Shown: piece by piece, positions 1,816 to 63,694 of the stretch
Layout of the letters: each line of letters starts with the position of its first letter
Numbering within the stretch: the first letter of the stretch is position 1
From: a virus
Virus record (IMG/VR): IMGVR_UViG_3300028025_004186
Location: 1-64,000 of that record
Strand: one strand, 5' to 3'
DNA: 64,000 nt
Notes under the pieces: generated by a model
What the model saw: the letters and a program-made list of their open reading frames with translations, nothing else
What the model was told of the DNA's origin: nothing
Databases searched by the model: none
Position numbers and translations under genes: made by a program

Positions 1816-2595
1816 ATGGACCACTATACAACACTAGGCGTACAACGCACAGCATCACAAGACGAAATCAAACAGGCCTATCGCAGATTGGCCGCAAAGC
1901 ATCACCCTGATCGTGGCGGTGACACAGCTACATTTCAAAAGATACAGCAGGCCTATGATACCCTGGGCAATGATCAACAGCGAGCTGCTTATGATCAACC
2001 ACAGTCACCATTCCAAGGCTTCCAAGGTGGTGGACATTTCAACTTTGATGAAATCTTCAACATGTTTGGTGCACGATTCCATGCGGGTGGACATCAACAG
2101 CAGCATCGGCAAGTGCGCATGAGTCTTTGGATTACCCTGCGTGATGTGGCAGTGGGCGGATCAAGACCTGTGGCAGTGAGCACTCAGCAAGGATCGACTA
2201 CAATTGAAATCCAAATTCCCTCGGGCATTGAAGATGGTGATTCAGTACAGTATCCCAATTTGGCTCCAGGAGGCGGTGATCTTATTGTGACCTTCCGTAT
2301 CCAACCCGACGACCGTTGGCAGCGCAATGGCAACACTGTTCTGCGTGAAGAACCCATATCCATTTGGACATTGATCTCTGGTGGCTCGTTAACCATCACA
2401 ACTCTTGCCGATGAGCGTATCACTGTGGCTATTCCCAGCAATACACAACCCGGAACCATGCTGCGTGTACGCGGCAAAGGTCTGCCAAATCGGCAAGGGC
2501 AGCTGGGAGATCTAATAATAAAAGCACAGGCACAGATTCCTGCAAACATTTCTCCCCAACTGATGTCAGCGATTCGGCAAGAAACGGGCAGCTAA
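1816..2595 (+). CDS. dnaJ: DnaJ/CbpA-type Hsp40 co-chaperone
   Basis: J-domain protein of 259 residues that should stimulate the ATPase of an Hsp70. The J domain spans about residues 3-65 and has the essential HPD at 30-32. A Gly/Phe-rich linker (about 70-95) follows, then a C-terminal substrate-binding domain with the usual IPSGIEDGD and VRGKGLPN signatures. There is no CxxCxGxG zinc-finger region, so it is of the CbpA (class B) type. Its likely partner is the phage DnaK at 60.2 kb. It stands directly upstream of the ClpA-type unfoldase, so a phage chaperone/unfoldase unit is plausible. No GrpE is visible. Confidence 0.93.
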   Translation: MDHYTTLGVQRTASQDEIKQAYRRLAAKHHPDRGGDTATFQKIQQAYDTLGNDQQRAAYDQPQSPFQGFQGGGHFNFDEIFNMFGARFHAGGHQQQHRQVRMSLWITLRDVAVGGSRPVAVSTQQGSTTIEIQIPSGIEDGDSVQYPNLAPGGGDLIVTFRIQPDDRWQRNGNTVLREEPISIWTLISGGSLTITTLADERITVAIPSNTQPGTMLRVRGKGLPNRQGQLGDLIIKAQAQIPANISPQLMSAIRQETGS

Positions 2596-6648: not shown

Positions 6649-7479
6649 ATGCGCACAATTGTCATTTATCCCGGTCGTTTTCACCCCTTTCATCGTGGGC
6701 ACTTTAGTGTCTACAAAGATCTAACAAAGAAGTACGGTGCAGAAAATGTGTTTGTTGCTACATCAGACAAACAAGCACCGGTGACATCACCATTCTCTTT
6801 TGCTGACAAGCAGAACATGATGGCCAAACTAGGCGTGCCCACTGACCACGTGGTCAAAGTAAAGAATCCCTATCAAGCTCAGGAAATCACACAACATTTT
6901 GATGCCAACGACACTGTGTTGATATTTGCCCTGGGGCAGAAAGACGTTGAACGTATCAGCTTCAATCCCAAGAAGGATGGGTCGCCCAGTTACATGCAGC
7001 CCATGCCTGAGAATCCCAAGAAAATGAAACCCTTGAGTCAGCATGCCTATGTTGTGTTGGCTCCTACAATAACATTCCAAGTGCAGGGTGCTGATGCCAG
7101 TTCAGCCACACAGATACGCAATAGTTATATCAAGGGCAATGATGAATCACGCATGGGCATCATTCAAGATCTCTATGGTGAGGTCAACAAAAATCTCAAA
7201 GATATGTTTGATCAACGATTACTACCTGTGGAAAAGATGCAGGAGTTTGTGTATGAAATGCGTCAGCGTCCCACAGCCAAAGGTGTAGCACTGCTGGAAC
7301 GTGTGATGCGCATGGAACGTGCGGCATTGGATGAATTTGATGTACAACAAGATGAATACGATGAGTCTGCTGATTACATCGAAGAAAAGTGGAGCAAGAA
7401 ATACAAAAGCTCAATCAACTGCAACAATCCAAAAGGATTCAGCCAACGTGCGCATTGCCAGGGACGAAAGAAAAAATAA
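6649..7479 (+). CDS. Cytidylyltransferase-like nucleotidylyltransferase with C-terminal Cys/basic module
   Basis: A 276-residue protein of the HxGH nucleotidylyltransferase superfamily, which transfers NMP from an NTP to a small phosphorylated substrate. Visible motifs are GRFHPFHRGH near residues 9-18 and the second signature SSATQIR near 153-159. The middle is charged and helical. The last 30 residues form a separate basic segment with two cysteines (SINCNNPKGFSQRAHCQGRKKK region), similar in style to Cys/Lys-rich tails on other proteins in this window. The substrate cannot be told. The stop codon TAA overlaps the ATG of the next gene. Confidence 0.8.
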   Translation: MRTIVIYPGRFHPFHRGHFSVYKDLTKKYGAENVFVATSDKQAPVTSPFSFADKQNMMAKLGVPTDHVVKVKNPYQAQEITQHFDANDTVLIFALGQKDVERISFNPKKDGSPSYMQPMPENPKKMKPLSQHAYVVLAPTITFQVQGADASSATQIRNSYIKGNDESRMGIIQDLYGEVNKNLKDMFDQRLLPVEKMQEFVYEMRQRPTAKGVALLERVMRMERAALDEFDVQQDEYDESADYIEEKWSKKYKSSINCNNPKGFSQRAHCQGRKKK

Positions 7480-8054
7480 TGCGACTGGGCGAGATTGCAA
7501 TTGAAGAAAGCTCGGGCTACAGTCTTGAAGGCAGTTTTACTCCTGATTTAGTATTCAGCAAGTTGTGGCTCATGCGTGAACTTGGTGAGATACAGCGTGA
7601 CATTCCAGTGATGTACGTCCTGGGTTCGTGGTATGGTAATCTTGCGCTGATGATCAACAGATATCAAATACCCGTTGTTGATCGCATTGTCAATGTTGAA
7701 CCCAACAAAAAATTCCTCAGCAGTAGCCAAGATCTTTTAACGCAGGCCGGTGCAGATAATGTTGAATACATGGCCAAAGATGCCAATGCGTTAGATTATC
7801 GTCAACTGGGCGATCAAGGTGTTGTAGTCAACACCAGTCTCACTGACATGCCGGGACGCAAGTGGTTTGATCGTATTCCCCCTGGCACATTGGTTGTGTT
7901 ACAAGCACGTGATCATGATCCTGGTGAACAGTTTGACTCTCCTGAATCCATACAACAACGTTTCCCCTTGGAGCAAGTCTTGTACTCCGGCAGTTTAGAT
8001 CTTGAAGATCCTGAAACTCCCTACACTAGATTTATGGTCATTGGCACCAAATAG
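7479..8054 (+). CDS. SAM-methyltransferase-like protein with targeting-peptide-like start
   Basis: A 191-residue protein starting MRLGEIAIEE, close in form to the capsid-targeting starts found at 14-23 kb. The ATG at 7479 overlaps the upstream stop (TAATG); a longer frame back to 7389 would lie within the upstream gene. The fold looks Rossmann-like: a first strand and loop VMYVLGSWYGN in place of the usual glycine motif, an acidic residue ending the second strand (NVEP), then YMAKDANAL and VVVNTSLTDM. It probably binds SAM, but the target is unknown. Confidence 0.65.
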   Translation: MRLGEIAIEESSGYSLEGSFTPDLVFSKLWLMRELGEIQRDIPVMYVLGSWYGNLALMINRYQIPVVDRIVNVEPNKKFLSSSQDLLTQAGADNVEYMAKDANALDYRQLGDQGVVVNTSLTDMPGRKWFDRIPPGTLVVLQARDHDPGEQFDSPESIQQRFPLEQVLYSGSLDLEDPETPYTRFMVIGTK

Positions 8055-26999: not shown

Positions 27000-28028
27000 A
27001 TGAAATCCGAGACACTTGTTTACTACAAATACAAACCTACAGTAAAACCAAATCTTGCAGGTAAATTCTGCGCAATACCATTTTCAATGATTGAAATTGA
27101 TGAAGATGGAGATGTGATGTTATGTGGGTGTCAGTACCATATGCCCTACGTGATTGGCAATATATATCACGATTCTATCAGTGACATATGGCAAAACCCA
27201 TCAGCAAAAACAGTGCGTGATAGTGTGGTTGCAGGAGAGTTTACTTACTGCAATTGGACTTGTCCAAATCTTCAAAATGCCCCGCAGCGACCGGACGTAA
27301 TCCCAGATCCAGGAGTATTTCCAGTTTGGGTTAAAATTGATCTTGATCGTAGCTGTAATTTACGATGTCCATCATGTCGTGAAACTGTAATTCAAGAAAA
27401 AGACAATGCACGTATTGCCAAACAACAAGAAATTTTTTCTGAAATCGTCACTCGAGCGGCCGGTGACCCTGATGTCAGCTACACTGTATTCCCAATCGGC
27501 AGCGGTGAAGTATTTGCTAGTCGAAGCGGATTGCATTTTTTAAAATCTTTGACCAATTATCCACACAATAATATACAACTGGCAATATGTACCAATGGTA
27601 CATTGTTATGGCACCACCGCGAACTAGTTGATCAACTTCAACATCACATGTCATTTACTGTCAGTATTGATGCTGCCACAGCTGAAACCTATGCTCTAGT
27701 ACGCGGAGGTAACTGGGAAGAATTACAATTGGGCATAGACAGGTATCAAAAAAACATTCAGCACTTTACTTTTGTAGTACAGGAAAAAAATTGGCATGAG
27801 ATTGAGTTGATTGCTGAATACGCCGATCAACTGGGCAAACGAGTTGATTATCAAAAGTTTTTAGATTGGGGGCATTGGACCAATGACTGGTGGCACGAAA
27901 ATAATCCCTTGGATCGACATAAAGCTCACTATCAAACTGTGCTTGGCGCATTGAATCAGGTGCGGCAACGCTATCCAAAATGTACGTTTTCTACTGAGAT
28001 AATAAATTTAATGAACAAGGTCAAATAG
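27000..28028 (+). CDS. Radical SAM protein with an N-terminal SPASM-like Cys domain
   Basis: A 342-residue protein. The core cluster motif CNLRCPSC lies at about 119-126. Before it, residues about 20-90 contain FCAIPFSMIEIDEDGDVMLCG, then CQYH and a further CNWTC, like the SPASM/twitch auxiliary cluster domain that normally follows the core; here it comes first. The later core has IGSGEV, LAICTNGTLL and FTVSIDAATAE. It could modify a peptide or a small molecule. A sigma70 promoter follows its stop. Confidence 0.82.
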   Translation: MKSETLVYYKYKPTVKPNLAGKFCAIPFSMIEIDEDGDVMLCGCQYHMPYVIGNIYHDSISDIWQNPSAKTVRDSVVAGEFTYCNWTCPNLQNAPQRPDVIPDPGVFPVWVKIDLDRSCNLRCPSCRETVIQEKDNARIAKQQEIFSEIVTRAAGDPDVSYTVFPIGSGEVFASRSGLHFLKSLTNYPHNNIQLAICTNGTLLWHHRELVDQLQHHMSFTVSIDAATAETYALVRGGNWEELQLGIDRYQKNIQHFTFVVQEKNWHEIELIAEYADQLGKRVDYQKFLDWGHWTNDWWHENNPLDRHKAHYQTVLGALNQVRQRYPKCTFSTEIINLMNKVK

Positions 28029-35417: not shown

Positions 35418-35586
35418 TATAGAAGAACTCAGCATTGAAGAACTTGAACGAGAACATCACAGATTGGAAAAACAACTAGGCAAATTGGAAAAACATCCCA
35501 TTGCCGATCATGATCGAATACGCGATATCAAAAAACTCAAACTACAACTCAAAGATCACATCGAAGAACTAAAACGTCAGCCATGA
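35380..35586 (+). CDS. Small coiled-coil protein, DUF465/YdcH-like
   Basis: A 68-residue, highly charged helical protein (ELSIEELEREHHRLEKQL, then DIKKLKLQLKDHIEEL) that resembles the DUF465 (YdcH) family. The ATG lies inside dpdA and has a good AGAAGGAG ribosome site at 35363-35370. It ends in the start of the radical SAM gene (ATGA). Role unknown. Confidence 0.65.
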   Translation: MNQDLTNLNNSINIEELSIEELEREHHRLEKQLGKLEKHPIADHDRIRDIKKLKLQLKDHIEELKRQP

Positions 35587-36827
35587 CTGCCACTGTTGAA
35601 ACTGTAAAGAATCAAATCCCCGAAGTGCCACCCCGTCGTTTTTGTGTGGCACCATTCATCAGTACCATGCAAACTACTATTGGTAAAACCAGTCCCTGTG
35701 CGTATGGTATAACTGAATGGCAGTTTGGAGAGTTGACTCCCAAACAACGTTGGACCAGTACTGAACTAAATCAGTTTAGATTAGATTTCTTACAAGGAAC
35801 TCCACCTGAACCTTGTAGCAAATGTTTTGATGAAGAAACAGCAGGCAAACAAAGTCTACGGCAACGTATGCTTGAATGGTATCCGCAGGCCTATGAAGAA
35901 CTGATATTGAGCGGGCAATGGGAACATGGCCCTCAACATATCAGCAGCAAAGTCAGCAATGTCTGCAACCTTGCCTGTAGAAGCTGCGGTGGCTATGACA
36001 GCAACACCTATCATCGTGAAGGTGTGCATTATACTGAAAAATATAAAACCATAAACTTTGTTGGTGAACCCGGCAATAGATTTGTCGCAAGGTTCTCGGC
36101 CAAGCACACTGATTATTCAGGCTTCCGTGACATTGACGCCAACATCACTAAATTAGAATTCTACGGTGGGGAACCACTGCTTAACTTATCGCATCTTGAC
36201 TTGCTGGAACATCTAGTCAACACAGGCCGTAGTAAAAATATCACGCTGTTCTATAGCACCAACTGTACACAGCCCATCAACAATCGTCATCGCAAGGTCT
36301 GGGATAAGTTCAAACGAGTTGAATTTAGTTTGAGTATTGATCACATTGGTGATAAGTTTCATTACCTACGCTGGCCTGGCAATTGGGATGAAGTACAAAC
36401 CAATGTTGATAGCCTGTTGGCATTGCGCAACACGTTAGATGCCGAAGTCACACATGTGGTATCACCATGCTGCACCATGCTCAATGTCTACTACATTGAT
36501 GAGATTTTGGATTGGGCACAGAGTTATGTGGGTGCTAGTTATATCAACATGGTGGCGAATCCATCCTATTTGTCTGTACATATTGCTCCAGATCATGTAA
36601 AATCCGCTATACTGGATCAAATAAAAGCACCTGAGGTTCGAGGATTTTTACAACTCAAACCGCACAACAAGATTGATTGGCGACAATTTATTATATGGAC
36701 CAAACGTCAAGACCTATATAGACAACAAGACTTTACTAAAACTTTTCCCGAATTTTATCAACTGTTCAAATCTGACTGGGATAGCATAACTGACCTTTCA
36801 GAAGAGAACTTCTTATGTGAGAGTTAA
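35583..36827 (+). CDS. Radical SAM protein with twitch-type Cys domain
   Basis: A 414-residue protein. The cluster motif CNLACRSC is at about 128-135. An N-terminal segment has FCVAPFISTMQTTIGKTSPC and EPCSKCFDEE, as in twitch-domain proteins. Core strands include LEFYGGEPLL, LFYSTNCTQP and VEFSLSIDHIG. A cofactor or base-modifying reaction is possible, given its place directly after dpdA, but the substrate is unknown. The start overlaps the upstream stop. Confidence 0.85.
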   Translation: MTATVETVKNQIPEVPPRRFCVAPFISTMQTTIGKTSPCAYGITEWQFGELTPKQRWTSTELNQFRLDFLQGTPPEPCSKCFDEETAGKQSLRQRMLEWYPQAYEELILSGQWEHGPQHISSKVSNVCNLACRSCGGYDSNTYHREGVHYTEKYKTINFVGEPGNRFVARFSAKHTDYSGFRDIDANITKLEFYGGEPLLNLSHLDLLEHLVNTGRSKNITLFYSTNCTQPINNRHRKVWDKFKRVEFSLSIDHIGDKFHYLRWPGNWDEVQTNVDSLLALRNTLDAEVTHVVSPCCTMLNVYYIDEILDWAQSYVGASYINMVANPSYLSVHIAPDHVKSAILDQIKAPEVRGFLQLKPHNKIDWRQFIIWTKRQDLYRQQDFTKTFPEFYQLFKSDWDSITDLSEENFLCES

Positions 36828-49289: not shown

Positions 49290-49310
49290 TTTTATTTCTT
49301 GTGCTATACT
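49282..49310 (+). promoter_or_regulatory. Sigma70-type promoter before queE
   Basis: TTGACT (49282-49287), a 17-base spacer and TATACT (49305-49310). The -35 overlaps the upstream stop codon. queE starts 25 bases downstream with a CAAGGAA ribosome site. Confidence 0.65.
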
Positions 49311-49334
49311 CGCACAAAACTCTCAAGGAATATC

Positions 49335-50204
49335 ATGCAACTTAAAATAGCTGAAATATTTTATAGTCTACAAGGTGAAGGACGTTGGGCCGGTGTGCCC
49401 AGTGTTTTCATGCGTACATTTGGTTGTAATTTTCAATGTCGTGGATTTGGATTGCCGCGTGGTGAGAAGACCACTGAACCCGACGAAATCGCAGCCAACG
49501 TACACCTTTACAAAACCTACAACGACTTGCCGTTGGCTCGAACTGGCTGTGACAGTTATGCATCATGGCATCCGGCGTTCAAACATCTGTCACCATTTAT
49601 GACCTTAGATGAAATTGCTGATCGTATGCATGGCATGATTCCCAAAAACAAGTGGAGTCCAGACACCATCAGTGATGATGTACATTTGGTTATCACTGGT
49701 GGCGAACCATTGCTGGGCTATCAGGTTGAATATCCTGAACTTATTGAAAAATGTCGCCAGCAAGGCCTGCGCAACATTACATTTGAAACCAATGGCACTC
49801 AGTTTTTACATGAAGACGTTAGAGAATATTTGTTTGAAGAATTCACCAGACATGGTAGAGATTATGATCGCCTGACTTTCAGTGTCAGTGCCAAACTGCC
49901 ATGCTCGGGTGAGCGGTGGGAAGATGCTATACGTCCCGAAGTTGTAAAAAGTTATGAGATGGTGGGCATGACCTATCTCAAGTTTGTTGTATCCAATGAT
50001 GATGATTTGAAAGATGTCAACGAAGCAGTGTATCAATTCCGCAGAGCTGGATTTGGCGGGCCTGTTTACTTGATGCCAACAGGTGGTGTCGCTGACTTAT
50101 ACAACTTCAATGTACCACAAGTGGCCGAACTGGCTATGAAACATGGATACAGATACAGTCCTAGATTGCAGGTAGATATCTGGCGCAATGCCTGGGGAAC
50201 CTAA
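49335..50204 (+). CDS. queE: QueE-like 7-carboxy-7-deazaguanine synthase
   Basis: A 289-residue radical SAM protein of the QueE type, expected to make the 7-deazaguanine ring. It starts KIAEIFYSLQGEGRWAGVP, the QueE signature, and has HLVITGGEPLLGYQ and TFETNGTQ. The cluster region is unusual: C31 and C35 are in FGCNFQCRGFG, but the third Cys expected at 38 is Phe, and the next Cys is C72 in TGCDSYASW. C72 may supply the third ligand through the intervening insertion. The start is chosen after CAAGGAA. Substrate CPH4 would come from the QueD-like enzyme. Confidence 0.87.
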   Translation: MQLKIAEIFYSLQGEGRWAGVPSVFMRTFGCNFQCRGFGLPRGEKTTEPDEIAANVHLYKTYNDLPLARTGCDSYASWHPAFKHLSPFMTLDEIADRMHGMIPKNKWSPDTISDDVHLVITGGEPLLGYQVEYPELIEKCRQQGLRNITFETNGTQFLHEDVREYLFEEFTRHGRDYDRLTFSVSAKLPCSGERWEDAIRPEVVKSYEMVGMTYLKFVVSNDDDLKDVNEAVYQFRRAGFGGPVYLMPTGGVADLYNFNVPQVAELAMKHGYRYSPRLQVDIWRNAWGT

Positions 50205-51327: not shown

Positions 51328-52428
51328 ATGAAAATTACAAAAATACCCGGACTTGGTAGTCGAGGAATCTACATTGATGATGTAGATCTCAATCACATCA
51401 GTGATGAAGAGTGGCTGGAGATCGGACATCTCTACATGCAGAATCTTGTGACTATCCTACGCAACGTCACAGTGACCAAAGAGCGATATCCTGAGCTGAT
51501 GGCCAAGTGGGGCCAATCACGTGTGCCCACTGGTATGGGGAAAAAATTCAAACAAAAGTATGGGTATGGTGTCAAAGATATATTTCAACTTGCCAAAACC
51601 AATCCAGAATTAATTGACGAACAAGATCAGTTATGGATTAAATCAATTGAAGAAGCCACTGAAAGAACCAGCAATGGTTATGTGATGATGAAAGTAGCTG
51701 GTGGATACACTGCCGACGGAGTGCCCAATGGCATGTTCAGCGAGGGAGAACTACTGTGGCACAGCAATGAGTCAGGTACATTGACCTTTACTCCCAGTGT
51801 ATCTTTGCTGGGCTGGAAAAACATGGTAGGATCATCAACTGGCTTTGTGCAAACTGCCGACTACTATGAAAATATTTCCAACAGTTTTCGCAGTGAACTT
51901 GATGACATGATTGTAGTACATCGCTTTATACCCAACAAGATTGGGCCAGGTATATCAAAGTCACAAGATGATTTATTGGGCATAAACATGGTGCCCGAAA
52001 ACAACAAAGAAGTTCCGCTGGTGCTGACCAGTCCTGGTGGCATACGTGGATTACATTACAGCATCAATACTGCCTGGCAAATCAAAGACATGAGTGTACC
52101 TGACAGTCATATACTGTTTGAGAGACTCAATAAAGAACTGTTTACTGAGGCAAACATTTATGATCACTGGTATCAGCAAGACAACGACTTATTGCTATTT
52201 GATAACACAATAACTCTGCATCGCAGAATTGGTTACATTGATGGTCGTGTGGCTCTAAGAAATCCACATGACTTCACAAATCTTCAAACTGGCCCTTGGC
52301 TACCCTATTCTGACAAACCAAAATATCAAAGACAGTACAACAGAGAGATTAGAAAAATTGTACGTCAACTTGGCATCACTGATTTTAAACTTCCACCAAC
52401 CGGCTTGTTAGAAATCCTAGGTCTTTGA
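51328..52428 (+). CDS. TauD/clavaminate-synthase-like oxygenase
   Basis: A 366-residue protein of the TauD superfamily (Fe(II)/2-oxoglutarate dioxygenases). It has NLVTILRNV at the start, LLWHSNESG near 147-155 as the metal motif, PGGIRGLHYS, and DNDLLLFDNTITLHRR near 285-300 with the distal His and Arg. The usual H-x-D/E reads H-S-N-E, so the carboxylate is shifted or replaced by Asn. It may hydroxylate a small molecule, a base or an amino acid. Confidence 0.78.
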   Translation: MKITKIPGLGSRGIYIDDVDLNHISDEEWLEIGHLYMQNLVTILRNVTVTKERYPELMAKWGQSRVPTGMGKKFKQKYGYGVKDIFQLAKTNPELIDEQDQLWIKSIEEATERTSNGYVMMKVAGGYTADGVPNGMFSEGELLWHSNESGTLTFTPSVSLLGWKNMVGSSTGFVQTADYYENISNSFRSELDDMIVVHRFIPNKIGPGISKSQDDLLGINMVPENNKEVPLVLTSPGGIRGLHYSINTAWQIKDMSVPDSHILFERLNKELFTEANIYDHWYQQDNDLLLFDNTITLHRRIGYIDGRVALRNPHDFTNLQTGPWLPYSDKPKYQRQYNREIRKIVRQLGITDFKLPPTGLLEILGL

Positions 52429-60137: not shown

Positions 60138-60198
60138 TTACTTGTAAATGTGCCGACAGGGCATTTACAAAATCTTGCTTAATTCAAAGGAGAAAACA

Positions 60199-62076
60199 AT
60201 GAGCACAATTATAGGTATTGACCTCGGAACCACCAACTCATGCGTGGCTATTGTAGAAAACGGAACCCCAAAAGTAATTGAAAATTCAGAAGGCGCACGT
60301 ACTACGCCATCAATCGTCGCTTACACTGACGCCGAAGTGTTGGTTGGCGCACCAGCCAAACGTCAGGCAGTCACAAACCCCAAGAATACAATCCATGCAG
60401 CCAAGCGGTTGATTGGACGTAAGTTCAAAGAACAGGCTGTGCAAAAAGACCTTGATCTAATGCCATACAAAATCATGGCGGCCGCCAATGGTGATGCCTG
60501 GGTTGAAGCCAATGGAAAAGAACTAGCACCACCGCAAATTTCAGCAGAAGTATTGCGTAAGATGAAAAAGACTGCGGAAGACTATCTTGGTCACGAAGTC
60601 ACACAGGCCGTCATCACAGTACCCGCTTACTTCAATGACAGCCAGCGTCAAGCCACCAAAGACGCTGGTAAGATTGCTGGCCTGGAAGTGCTGCGTATTA
60701 TCAATGAACCAACAGCGGCTGCGCTGGCATATGGGGTAGACAAACAAGACAAAGTGGATCGCAAGGTTGCTGTGTATGACTTAGGTGGCGGCACGTTTGA
60801 CGTCAGTATTATTGAGATTGCCAATGTTGATGGCGACAAGCAAATTGAAGTGTTGTCAACAAACGGTGACACATTTCTAGGCGGAGAAGACTTTGATAAT
60901 CGTATCATGGACTATCTTGTTTCTGAATTTAAAAAGGATTCTGGTGTTGACCTCAGTAAAGATGTCATGGCACTACAACGTCTAAAAGAAGCAGCAGAGC
61001 GCACCAAGATTGAACTATCAAACAGCGCACAAACAGATGTAAACTTGCCGTATGTCACTGCTGATGCATCAGGTCCTAAACATTTAAATGTCAAGATGAC
61101 TCGTGCCAAGTTGGAAAGTCTTGTTGAAGACTTGATTCAACGCAGCCTAGAGCCATGCCGTCAGGCCATGACAGATGCCAAAGTATCGGCCGCAGACATT
61201 GACGAAGTTATTCTTGTGGGCGGCCAGACACGTATGCCCAAGGTGCAAGAAGCAGTGGAAAAGCTGTTTGGTAAAGCACCACGACGTGATGTCAATCCAG
61301 ACGAAGCAGTGGCTGCAGGTGCTGCCTTGCAAGGTGCTGTGCTAGGCGGTGAACGCAAAGACCTACTGTTGCTTGATGTAACACCATTGAGTCTTGGCAT
61401 TGAAACACAGGGTGGAGTGTTTACTAAGTTGATCAATAAGAACACCACTATTCCCACAAAGCATAGCCAAGTGTTCTCCACTGCTGACGACAATCAACCT
61501 GCTGTGACTATCAAAGTTGCGCAAGGCGAACGTGAACTATTCCAATACAACAAGTCATTGGGTGAATTTAATCTTGAAGGCATTGCACCAGCACGTCGTG
61601 GTGTGCCACAGATTGAAGTTACACTAGATATTGATGCCAATGGTATCATGCACGTATCAGCCAAAGACAAAAACACCGGCAAAGAAAACAAGATCACTAT
61701 CAAATCCAACTCAGGGCTAAGTGATGCTGAAGTTGAACAGATGATCAAGGATGCTGAACTCAATGCTGAAGCCGACAAGAAGCAACGTGAATCTATTGAA
61801 ACACGCAATCAAGCCGAATCACAGTTACACATGATTCGTGCCGAACTCAAGGAAGTGGAATCGCAGTTAACTGAGGAACAAAAAACCTCTGTCAACACTG
61901 CAATCACTGCGGTTGAAACTGCTGTGCAAGGCGATGACTTGGAAGCAATTAAATCTAGTCTGGATGAATTATTCAAGGCCGCTGCTCCGGTCTTTGAGGC
62001 CAAAGCCAAAGCATCTGAGCCCGCAGAACCTGTAGATGAAACAGTGGTTGACGCTGACTTCAAAGAAAGCAAATAA
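60199..62076 (+). CDS. dnaK: Hsp70 chaperone DnaK
   Basis: A full DnaK of 625 residues, started at the ATG at 60199 after CAAAGGAGA. The ATPase domain has [56 protein letters not shown] and [10 protein letters not shown]. The [16 protein letters not shown] linker and substrate-binding domain follow, and the helical lid ends with a DADFKESK tail. Sequence style is close to betaproteobacterial DnaK, suggesting capture from a host of that group. With phage DnaJ it could fold virion proteins or protect replication; GrpE would come from the host. Confidence 0.97.
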
Positions 62077-62082
62077 AATCAA

Positions 62083-62106
62083 AGCCCAGCATGTCTGGGC
62101 TTTTTC
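62083..62106 (+). terminator. Rho-independent terminator after dnaK
   Basis: AGCCCAG (62083-62089) pairs with CTGGGCT (62095-62101) around the loop CATGT, followed by a T tract. It ends the dnaK transcript just before tRNA-Arg. Confidence 0.85.
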
Positions 62107-62116
62107 CTAAAAACAC

Positions 62117-62191
62117 CTGGCGTTCGTTCAATGGATAGGACATAGAGCTTCTACCTCTAGAATGTGGGTTCGATTCCTGCACGCCGGACCA
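62117..62191 (+). tRNA. tRNA-Arg (TCT)
   Basis: The acceptor CTGGCGT pairs with ACGCCGG (one T-G pair). The anticodon stem TAGAG/CTCTA holds CTTCTAC (anticodon TCT). CCA is encoded (62189-62191). Confidence 0.9.
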
Positions 62192-62201
62192 AAAAAACCA
62201 G

Positions 62202-62238
62202 CTAAATAGTAAACAGGGTTTTTGCCTGAACTATTTAG
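62202..62238 (+). promoter_or_regulatory. Inverted repeat holding TAAATA on both strands
   Basis: CTAAATAGT (62202-62210) and ACTATTTAG (62230-62238) are perfect inverted copies; inside, CAGG and CCTG also pair around GTTTTTG. So the late-type motif occurs on both strands, just before the TTG-started carboxypeptidase gene. It may be a regulatory hairpin, a two-way promoter or both. Confidence 0.5.
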
Positions 62239-62250
62239 ACGAGGTAACCA

Positions 62251-63093
62251 TTGAAAAAAATATTACTAATAGTTATTGCATTGTTATGTTTTGTCAGCAC
62301 TGCTGAAGCAAAAAAACGTCACCATCATCATCCACATCGCGCAGCAGTTAAAAAAGCAAAACATCATCCTGTTCGCACTGCAAATCCCATCAGTGTATGG
62401 GCATATGACATTAAGACACAATCACCCATTGTTGGGCATGGCACACAACTTGTTAGGCCCATGGCTAGTTTAACCAAGTTAATGACTGCCATGGTAAGTC
62501 TTGACCACAACAACAATCTTCAACAGACAATGTATTATCAAGGTCGGCCAGTGACTAGAGAACGATTATTTCAACGCCTGTTGATTCGCAGCGACAACAA
62601 CGTAGCAGAATTTCTAAGTCAAGATTATCCAGGTGGCCGTACTGCATTTCTCAATGCCATGAATCACAAGGCATCACGGTTGGCTATGTTGAACACACAC
62701 TTTGATGACCCATCGGGTCGTATTCAAACCAATGTCAGCACTGCTGAGGATGTTGGTAGAATGTTGGAAGCAGCACACGGATATCAAATCATACGTAGGA
62801 TTTCCACTTACCAAGATTTAGAAACCACCACAGTGGTACATCGTCGACACAAAACCTACACCAGCGTCAGTCATACCCCCAATACCAACACCATGGTACT
62901 GTCGGCTTTTCCTGAAGTAGTTGTAAGCAAAACTGGGTTTACCAATCCAGCTGGTTATTGCGTGGGAGTAGTGGTTGAACAAAACGGTCGCACTTATGCC
63001 GTGGTCATTATGGGTGCTCAAAATCGTTATCAAAGATTTGACAAAGTAAAAGAAGTCATGCATAATCATATTGTAACGGCTTCAAACATATAA
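62251..63093 (+). CDS. Exported D-alanyl-D-alanine carboxypeptidase-like protein (peptidase S11)
   Basis: A 280-residue protein with a Sec signal peptide (residues 1-20, ending STAEA), then a basic His/Lys stretch (KKRHHHHPHRAAVKK) and a penicillin-binding-protein domain of S11 type. The three catalytic motifs are visible: S-L-T-K at 73-76, S-D-N at 114-116 and K-T-G at 227-229. It should trim or cut cross-links of peptidoglycan in the periplasm (PBP7-like). The start is the TTG at 62251 after GAGGT. It may alter the envelope during infection, aid lysis or block other phages. Confidence 0.9.
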   Translation: MKKILLIVIALLCFVSTAEAKKRHHHHPHRAAVKKAKHHPVRTANPISVWAYDIKTQSPIVGHGTQLVRPMASLTKLMTAMVSLDHNNNLQQTMYYQGRPVTRERLFQRLLIRSDNNVAEFLSQDYPGGRTAFLNAMNHKASRLAMLNTHFDDPSGRIQTNVSTAEDVGRMLEAAHGYQIIRRISTYQDLETTTVVHRRHKTYTSVSHTPNTNTMVLSAFPEVVVSKTGFTNPAGYCVGVVVEQNGRTYAVVIMGAQNRYQRFDKVKEVMHNHIVTASNI

Positions 63094-63101
63094 AGAACGA
63101 T

Positions 63102-63175
63102 GCGGGGTTCGTATAATGGTAATACCTTAGCCTTCCAAGCTAAAGCCGAGGGTTCGATTCCCTTACCCCGCTCCA
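63102..63175 (+). tRNA. tRNA-Gly (TCC)
   Basis: The acceptor GCGGGGT pairs with ACCCCGC. The anticodon stem TTAGC/GCTAA holds CTTCCAA (anticodon TCC). CCA is encoded (63173-63175). Confidence 0.93.
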
Positions 63176-63183
63176 TAATTTAA

Positions 63184-63190
63184 GTAAATA
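63184..63190 (+). promoter_or_regulatory. Late-promoter-like GTAAATA
   Basis: GTAAATAAG lies 5 bases upstream of the ATG of a small membrane protein gene. Confidence 0.35.
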
Positions 63191-63195
63191 AGTGC

Positions 63196-63327
63196 ATGGG
63201 CACTGAACAGTTATACTTCGTTATTGGGTTCTTACTTGGCACAATGTTAACGGGCTGCTTGGTGGTATTTGCCTATGCACTCTGGCATGAATACTTGTTT
63301 AAACCCACCCCAGAGAAAGAAGAATAA
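63196..63327 (+). CDS. Small single-pass membrane protein (43 aa)
   Basis: A 43-residue frame starting MGTEQLYFVIG, with one membrane segment (about residues 5-28) and a charged end (KPTPEKEE). It lies between tRNA-Gly and the tmRNA. No ribosome site is clear. Unrecognised. Confidence 0.5.
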   Translation: MGTEQLYFVIGFLLGTMLTGCLVVFAYALWHEYLFKPTPEKEE

Positions 63328-63353
63328 AAGAATTGTTGTAATTCCTTTGGAGT

Positions 63354-63626
63354 AAAGGCATTCTGGACGTGGGTTCGACTCCCACCTGGTCCACCAGAAA
63401 CATATTTGCAGACCGTGCGACTCTTTGTGAAAAGGACCGTACTGCAGGACGAAGTGTGTTTCTGATGGGCCAGACCTGGCTTCGACAGGGTGAGATAGCA
63501 AAGAAGGCAACACGCCAGGCGATGGACGTAATCCAAGCAAACTAGTAACTGCAAACGCAGCTAACGACGAGGTTTTCGCTCTCGCAGCGTAATCTCCGGG
63601 GCAACTATGCCTTGTAACCCAAAATA
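63354..63626 (+). ncRNA. ssrA: Permuted two-piece tmRNA (ssrA)
   Basis: The acceptor piece comes first: T arm GTGGG-TTCGACT-CCCAC (63369-63385), then CTGGTCC, A and an encoded CCA ending at 63396. The coding piece starts with GGGCCAG at 63467, which pairs with CTGGTCC over 7 bp with a G3-U70 pair, the alanine identity mark. It continues with the conserved TGGCTTCGAC, and the tag reading frame is 63551-63592: GCA AAC GCA GCT AAC GAC GAG, then GTT to GCG and TAA, giving ANAANDEVFALAA. The intervening 70 bases (63397-63466) extend the acceptor stem (CAGAAACA with TGTTTCTG) and should be cut out. Exact 5' and 3' ends are approximate. Confidence 0.9.
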
Positions 63627-63629
63627 GTA

Positions 63630-63651
63630 AGCCCGCTTCGGCGGGCTTTTT
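63630..63651 (+). terminator. Rho-independent terminator after the tmRNA
   Basis: GCCCGC (63631-63636) and GCGGGC (63641-63646) pair around a TTCG loop, followed by five T. It ends the tmRNA precursor. Confidence 0.9.
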
Positions 63652-63671
63652 CACATCTGCAGATTTGCATT

Positions 63672-63680
63672 CTTAAATAC
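63672..63680 (+). promoter_or_regulatory. Late-promoter-like CTTAAATAC
   Basis: CTTAAATAC lies 15 bases before the final ATG of the window, followed by an AAGGAGA ribosome site. Confidence 0.4.
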
Positions 63681-63694
63681 AGCAAGGAGAGTAT

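Follow-up and report, generated by a model that had tools for sequence, protein, structure and literature searches.

The window analysed here (64,000 nucleotides, positions 1 to 64,000 of the linear, 65,168-base IMG/VR record G000) carries a permuted tmRNA gene that is best read as an intact phage two-piece tmRNA maintained by selection, predicted to make use of the SmpB, AlaRS and RNase P of its host and to mark proteins for Clp proteolysis. We give this reading a probability of about 0.85, and the RNA is real and conserved, and probably functional. Phage genomes, most of them aquatic, had already yielded 53 two-piece tmRNAs in a published study (PMC9004378), so that the kind is known; judging from the sequences compared, the novelty is the tag, which exceeds those of the bacteria searched by three residues and differs from them chemically. 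The evidence lies in the anatomy of the gene, the spacing of its resume codon, a tag that is near-invariant across divergent RNAs, and the absence of that tag from the bacterial sets searched.

Both permuted covariance models exceeded their gathering scores in the window. With cmscan against Rfam, RF01850 (beta_tmRNA) was matched over the whole model at 63281-63653 (159.1 bits, E 3.7e-49) and RF04321 (tmRNA_permuted), also over the whole model, at 63334-63592 (139.6 bits, E 2.3e-27), while ARAGORN called a tmRNA* at 63304-63683 with the tag ANAANDEVFALAA. The assignment to the beta type rests on beta_tmRNA being the only clade model that cmscan reported for the window. An earlier note, made by reading the letters of this DNA, had proposed an acceptor-first gene with a 7-bp stem, a G3-U70 pair and a 13-residue tag frame, all of which are present, with matches far above chance; it had also held that the lack of an acceptor-first covariance match would speak against the gene, and when this search was run both permuted models matched. 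The tag length and the beta-like tag end that it described were correct. The proposed start at 63354 truncates the acceptor piece, whose true start is at about 63334 (Table 1).

Table 1. Features of the tmRNA gene, its surroundings and the chaperone and Clp-type genes in the window
Feature	Position	Strand	Basis
DnaJ-like co-chaperone	1816..2595	+	DnaJ and DnaJ_C domains
ClpA-like unfoldase, both Walker A motifs, IGF loop	2674..4938	+	581 bits to E. coli ClpA
Phage DnaK, probable start 60199	60148..62076	+	HSP70 864 bits; TIGR02350 913 bits, above cut-off
Promoter-like TTGACA-17-CATAAT	63038-63066		such sites no commoner than in shuffles
tRNA-Gly(TCC), just upstream of tmRNA	63102..63175	+	ARAGORN
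43-codon ORF, small hydrophobic protein (probable membrane), between tRNA-Gly and tmRNA; also in L123	63196..63327	+	
Gene for the permuted pre-tmRNA, extent of the full Rfam match	63281..63653	+	RF01850, RF04321, ARAGORN
Acceptor piece: T arm, 3' acceptor-stem strand, discriminator A, encoded CCA	63334..63396	+	covariance match and sequence
70-nt spacer between the two pieces, predicted to be excised	63397..63466	+	position from stem analysis; removal predicted
Coding piece, opening with GGGCCAG (5' strand of the acceptor stem) and containing the conserved UUCGACAGGG region, a pseudoknot, the tag frame and a helical 3' region	63467..63628	+	
Tag frame ANAANDEVFALAA and TAA, 13 codons, resume codon GCA at 63551	63551..63592	+	ARAGORN, spacing
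GC hairpin AAGCCCGC-TTCG-GCGGGCTT and T run, likely terminator	63629..63652	+	sequence; hairpin scan lists - strand only

The acceptor piece ends in CTGGTCC-A-CCA (63386-63396), with the discriminator A and CCA at 63393-63396, and all seven positions of the acceptor stem are paired (63467-63473 with 63386-63392), the G3-U70 pair being formed by 63469 and 63390. A stem could be recognised in 57 viral loci; in these, positions 4-6 covaried (G-C, C-G, T-A, A-T) and positions 1, 2, G3-U and 7 were invariant, a biased count in which the best-pairing offset was chosen and loci with at least 6 of 7 pairs were kept; another 64 loci fell outside the strict stem motifs and are evidence for neither side. 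This compensated variation supports the existence of a real acceptor stem in the viral genes.

GCAAA stands 9-11 nt ahead of the resume codon in 13 long-tag tmRNAs that allowed the measurement, in 49 with short tags and in 11 from bacteria, and the GCA at 63551 fits this range. A tag start at the GCT at 63560 was considered and rejected, given that the spacing would grow by 9 nt. Since the spacing to the GCA resume codon is normal, the three extra codons lie inside the tag, 3' of the normal resume point. Once the charged alanine is included, the tag carried by the product is an entire AANDEVFALAA with AAN in front of it.

An exact search for A[N/T]AANDExFALAA followed by a TAA stop recovered 22 viral contigs, and the same tag had no match in the 84,980 bacterial and archaeal species of genome_contigs, in a search fixed to FALAA and TAA that bacterial relatives with other ends could escape. 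The canonical short form ANDExFALAA had at least 120 matches in that 84,980-species set; in viral contigs at least 120 matches to this pattern were also listed, most of these listed contigs having a permuted tmRNA according to ARAGORN, with a subset confirmed by Rfam. Five of 399 Burkholderiales genomes gave matches to the looser pattern ANAANDE, which were set aside as chance, the four inspected being without a tag frame or an ARAGORN gene. When the tmRNA was searched by blastn, no match was found among INPHARED phages, and plasmids gave only short stretches of bacterial tmRNA-like DNA; a text search for the tag strings returned unrelated words only. Across the sets searched, the long tag form looks specific to phages.

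The residue preceding F (x) in the long tags is V or I. Among the 120 bacterial ANDExFALAA tags listed, x was R in 100, T in 11, N in 4, K in 3 and S in 2, and among the 120 viral tags listed it was K in 31, Q in 29, R in 18, L in 14, V in 10, T in 6, A in 4, S in 3, M in 3 and I in 2, counts whose rows are not independent samples. An ANDxx[F/Y]ALAA tag was found in 280 of 399 Burkholderiales genomes, and none of the 399, including these 280, had an NTN (hydrophobic) codon at x. These counts provide a strong lead that a hydrophobic x is a viral and not a bacterial trait. The suggestion of the earlier note that phage-tagged proteins could be told apart from host-tagged ones is strengthened, as both the AAN extension and a hydrophobic residue before F/Y are absent from the bacterial sets searched. 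Because the last 10 tag residues match the host pattern, mass spectrometry, and not a C-terminal antibody, would separate the two populations.

Thirteen distinct DNA versions of the tag were found in 23 contigs, in which 10 of the 14 codons vary and residue changes are confined to two positions (N/T and V/I). The RNA bodies diverge down to 56% identity, and tag differences that are almost only synonymous over such divergence point to selection on the peptide. The tmRNA body of the window's record (represented by L122, a slice of that record) shares 99.5% identity with the one in L124, a contig of 114 kb whose upstream sequence differs. In a FastTree tree of the RNA bodies, the long tags fell in one clade (support 0.997, three label changes), some inner branches of the tree having modest support. 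A 10-residue tag with V at x (L003) and a 26-residue tag (L019, ANVSTFKFWQSPVSVAANDEAFALAA) nest within this clade, so at least two changes in tag length probably took place there, always on the N-terminal side of DExFALAA. The 26-residue form of the tag, ANVSTFKFWQSPVS[V/I]AANDEAFALAA, was observed with normal resume spacing in the permuted phage tmRNAs of L019, L055, L067 and L119, and the records of L019 and L055 also encode DnaK.

The tree bears as well on the alternative that the benefit of the gene is ribosome rescue alone and that the longer tag and its V/I are products of neutral drift within a single lineage of phage tmRNAs. Three changes suffice to account for the long tags, so origins would be few, and the C-terminal FALAA, likely the main degron, is unaltered. 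We regard this alternative as a tentative one that deserves some weight, but it sits uneasily with tag residues that stay near-constant despite divergent codons and RNA bodies, with a 26-residue N-terminal extension of the same clade that retains AANDExFALAA, and with the hydrophobic x shown by viral tags overall and not by bacterial ones.

It is established that two-piece tmRNAs mature through tRNA enzymes, RNase P among them, and work with AlaRS and SmpB. If the phage gene is a selected tmRNA, a single precursor transcript would be cut by host tRNA-processing enzymes, with RNase P predicted to cleave at 63466/63467, and the acceptor piece, bearing the CCA end, and the coding piece would pair through the 7-bp G3-U70 stem and be charged by host AlaRS. 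During infection, host SmpB would bring this tmRNA to ribosomes that had stalled on broken mRNA, where translation would resume at the GCA at 63551, appending A(charged)-ANAANDEVFALAA, a sequence that would present the full AANDExFALAA degron behind an extra AAN. The released protein, with a tagged C-terminus expected to be normal for ClpX or ClpA, would be directed to Clp proteolysis by host and/or phage-encoded unfoldases. SmpB was absent from the window's record and from 44 other tmRNA-bearing viral records, most of which are fragments, so host SmpB would be needed.

Identity between the phage DnaK and the DnaK proteins of Burkholderiales reaches 73%, in a comparison that pointed to no single host. 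In L127, L128 and L137 the dnaK gene follows the tag at a distance of about 0.8 kb, and in the window (60148-63653) and in L123 it precedes the tag; dnaK and tmRNA are linked, and their order is not fixed. The ClpA-like protein scored 797 bits with TIGR02639, below the equivalog cut-off of 993, hence its designation as ClpA-like only; its ClpP-docking loop is present, NIGFGN aligning to the IGL of E. coli ClpA. The DnaJ, DnaK and ClpA-like proteins would fit a phage that manages protein quality, and a phage tag-and-degrade route is possible.

Among the 45 tmRNA-bearing records, ClpA-like proteins were found in seven, including the window's record and that of L126, which has the same tag, and the IGF loop was intact in all seven; ClpX-like proteins with a zinc domain also occurred in seven of the 45. 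Strong ClpP matches were found in G024, G028, G033 and G036, a list from which matches near 100 bits, which may be prohead-type proteases, were left out. It was observed that the huge-phage records G024, G028 and G033 (those of L013, L045 and L071; 320-353 kb) combine an ANDExFALAA tmRNA tag with ClpA-like, ClpX-like and strong ClpP proteins.

ClpAP is able to degrade ssrA-tagged proteins in E. coli. Together with the seven ClpA-like records, their intact loops and the tag shared by the window and L126, this is in line with a tag tuned for a phage ClpA-like unfoldase working on host ClpP, or for the evasion of a host adaptor such as SspB. A longer sequence preceding ALAA was found to improve SspB-independent degradation in E. 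coli (PMC8512704), and by that token a longer lead could aid adaptor-free capture. Such tuning is nonetheless unlikely, considering that no ClpA was seen in most long-tag records, although these are mostly fragments, and that INPHARED phages chosen without regard to tmRNA include 163 records with ClpA relatives, so the link may just mirror genome size. A bolder proposal, which we rate as rather improbable, is that large Burkholderiales phages rewrote their tags, by N-terminal extension and a hydrophobic pre-F residue, into a phage-handled mark that is routed to a phage Clp unfoldase and not through the usual route of the host.

It has been discussed that phages acquire host ssrA fragments (PMC9004378), and since such fragments can enter phages, the gene might be a non-functional relic of a host; this is very improbable in view of the complete models, the intact stem, the mostly synonymous drift of tag codons and the recurrence across many phage contigs. 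The T4-type DNA polymerase (645 bits), phage exonuclease family, QueE-like protein and six tRNAs of the record mark it as a fragment of a large phage; nearly all of its long ORFs lie on one strand, and the contigs nearest to it when neighbouring proteins are compared are viral, with lengths of 42 to 136 kb. That a bacterial fragment was misfiled as viral, as the host-like DnaK, DnaJ and D-Ala-D-Ala peptidase encoded in the record might suggest, is scarcely credible against that polymerase and exonuclease, the one-strand ORFs, the closest relatives in IMG/VR and the absence of the tag from the bacterial genomes searched.

The window also encodes the QueE-like protein at 49299-50204, a TauD-type dioxygenase at 51328-52428 and radical SAM proteins at 27000-28028 and 35583-36827. 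In other tmRNA-bearing phage contigs, CUA-anticodon tRNAs, labelled 'Pyl' by ARAGORN, were found in L074 (1932-2007), L135 (613-688), L136 (8008-8081) and L143 (13168-13243), for which amber suppression or TAG recoding is possible. L061, whose contig has the tag ANAANDEIFALAA, carries at 6731-7801 an ORF that by eye resembles a periplasmic phosphate-binding protein (PstS-like).

An apparently phage-specific tag would constitute a natural label, bearing on the unsettled purpose of phage tmRNAs, and mass spectrometry of infected cells could reveal which proteins the phage RNA tags, at what time, and by which protease they are removed. Such a tag would also extend the spectrum of natural degrons known so far.

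Phage-encoded rescue components are shared with huge phages, in which tmRNA occurs with SmpB (PMC7162821), unlike the window's record and the 44 related records. The ClpA-like protein shares with E. coli ClpA (PDB 1ksf) the two AAA domains and the ClpP-docking loop, but is divergent and falls below the NCBIfam ClpA cut-off. As in the methylophage Melnitz and other aquatic phages (PMC9004378), a permuted tmRNA is encoded by a large myophage; however, the ssrA of Melnitz is of the alphaproteobacterial type and accompanied by a glutamine riboswitch, whereas that of the window is of the beta type, with a lengthened tag, and the Rfam scan found no riboswitch in the window. With the betaproteobacterial two-piece tmRNA (RF01850) the gene shares the acceptor-first order, a full-length model match, G3-U70 and the ANDExFALAA core, while differing in being phage-borne, in its three extra tag codons and in the V before F, where the bacterial tags have R, T, N, K or S.
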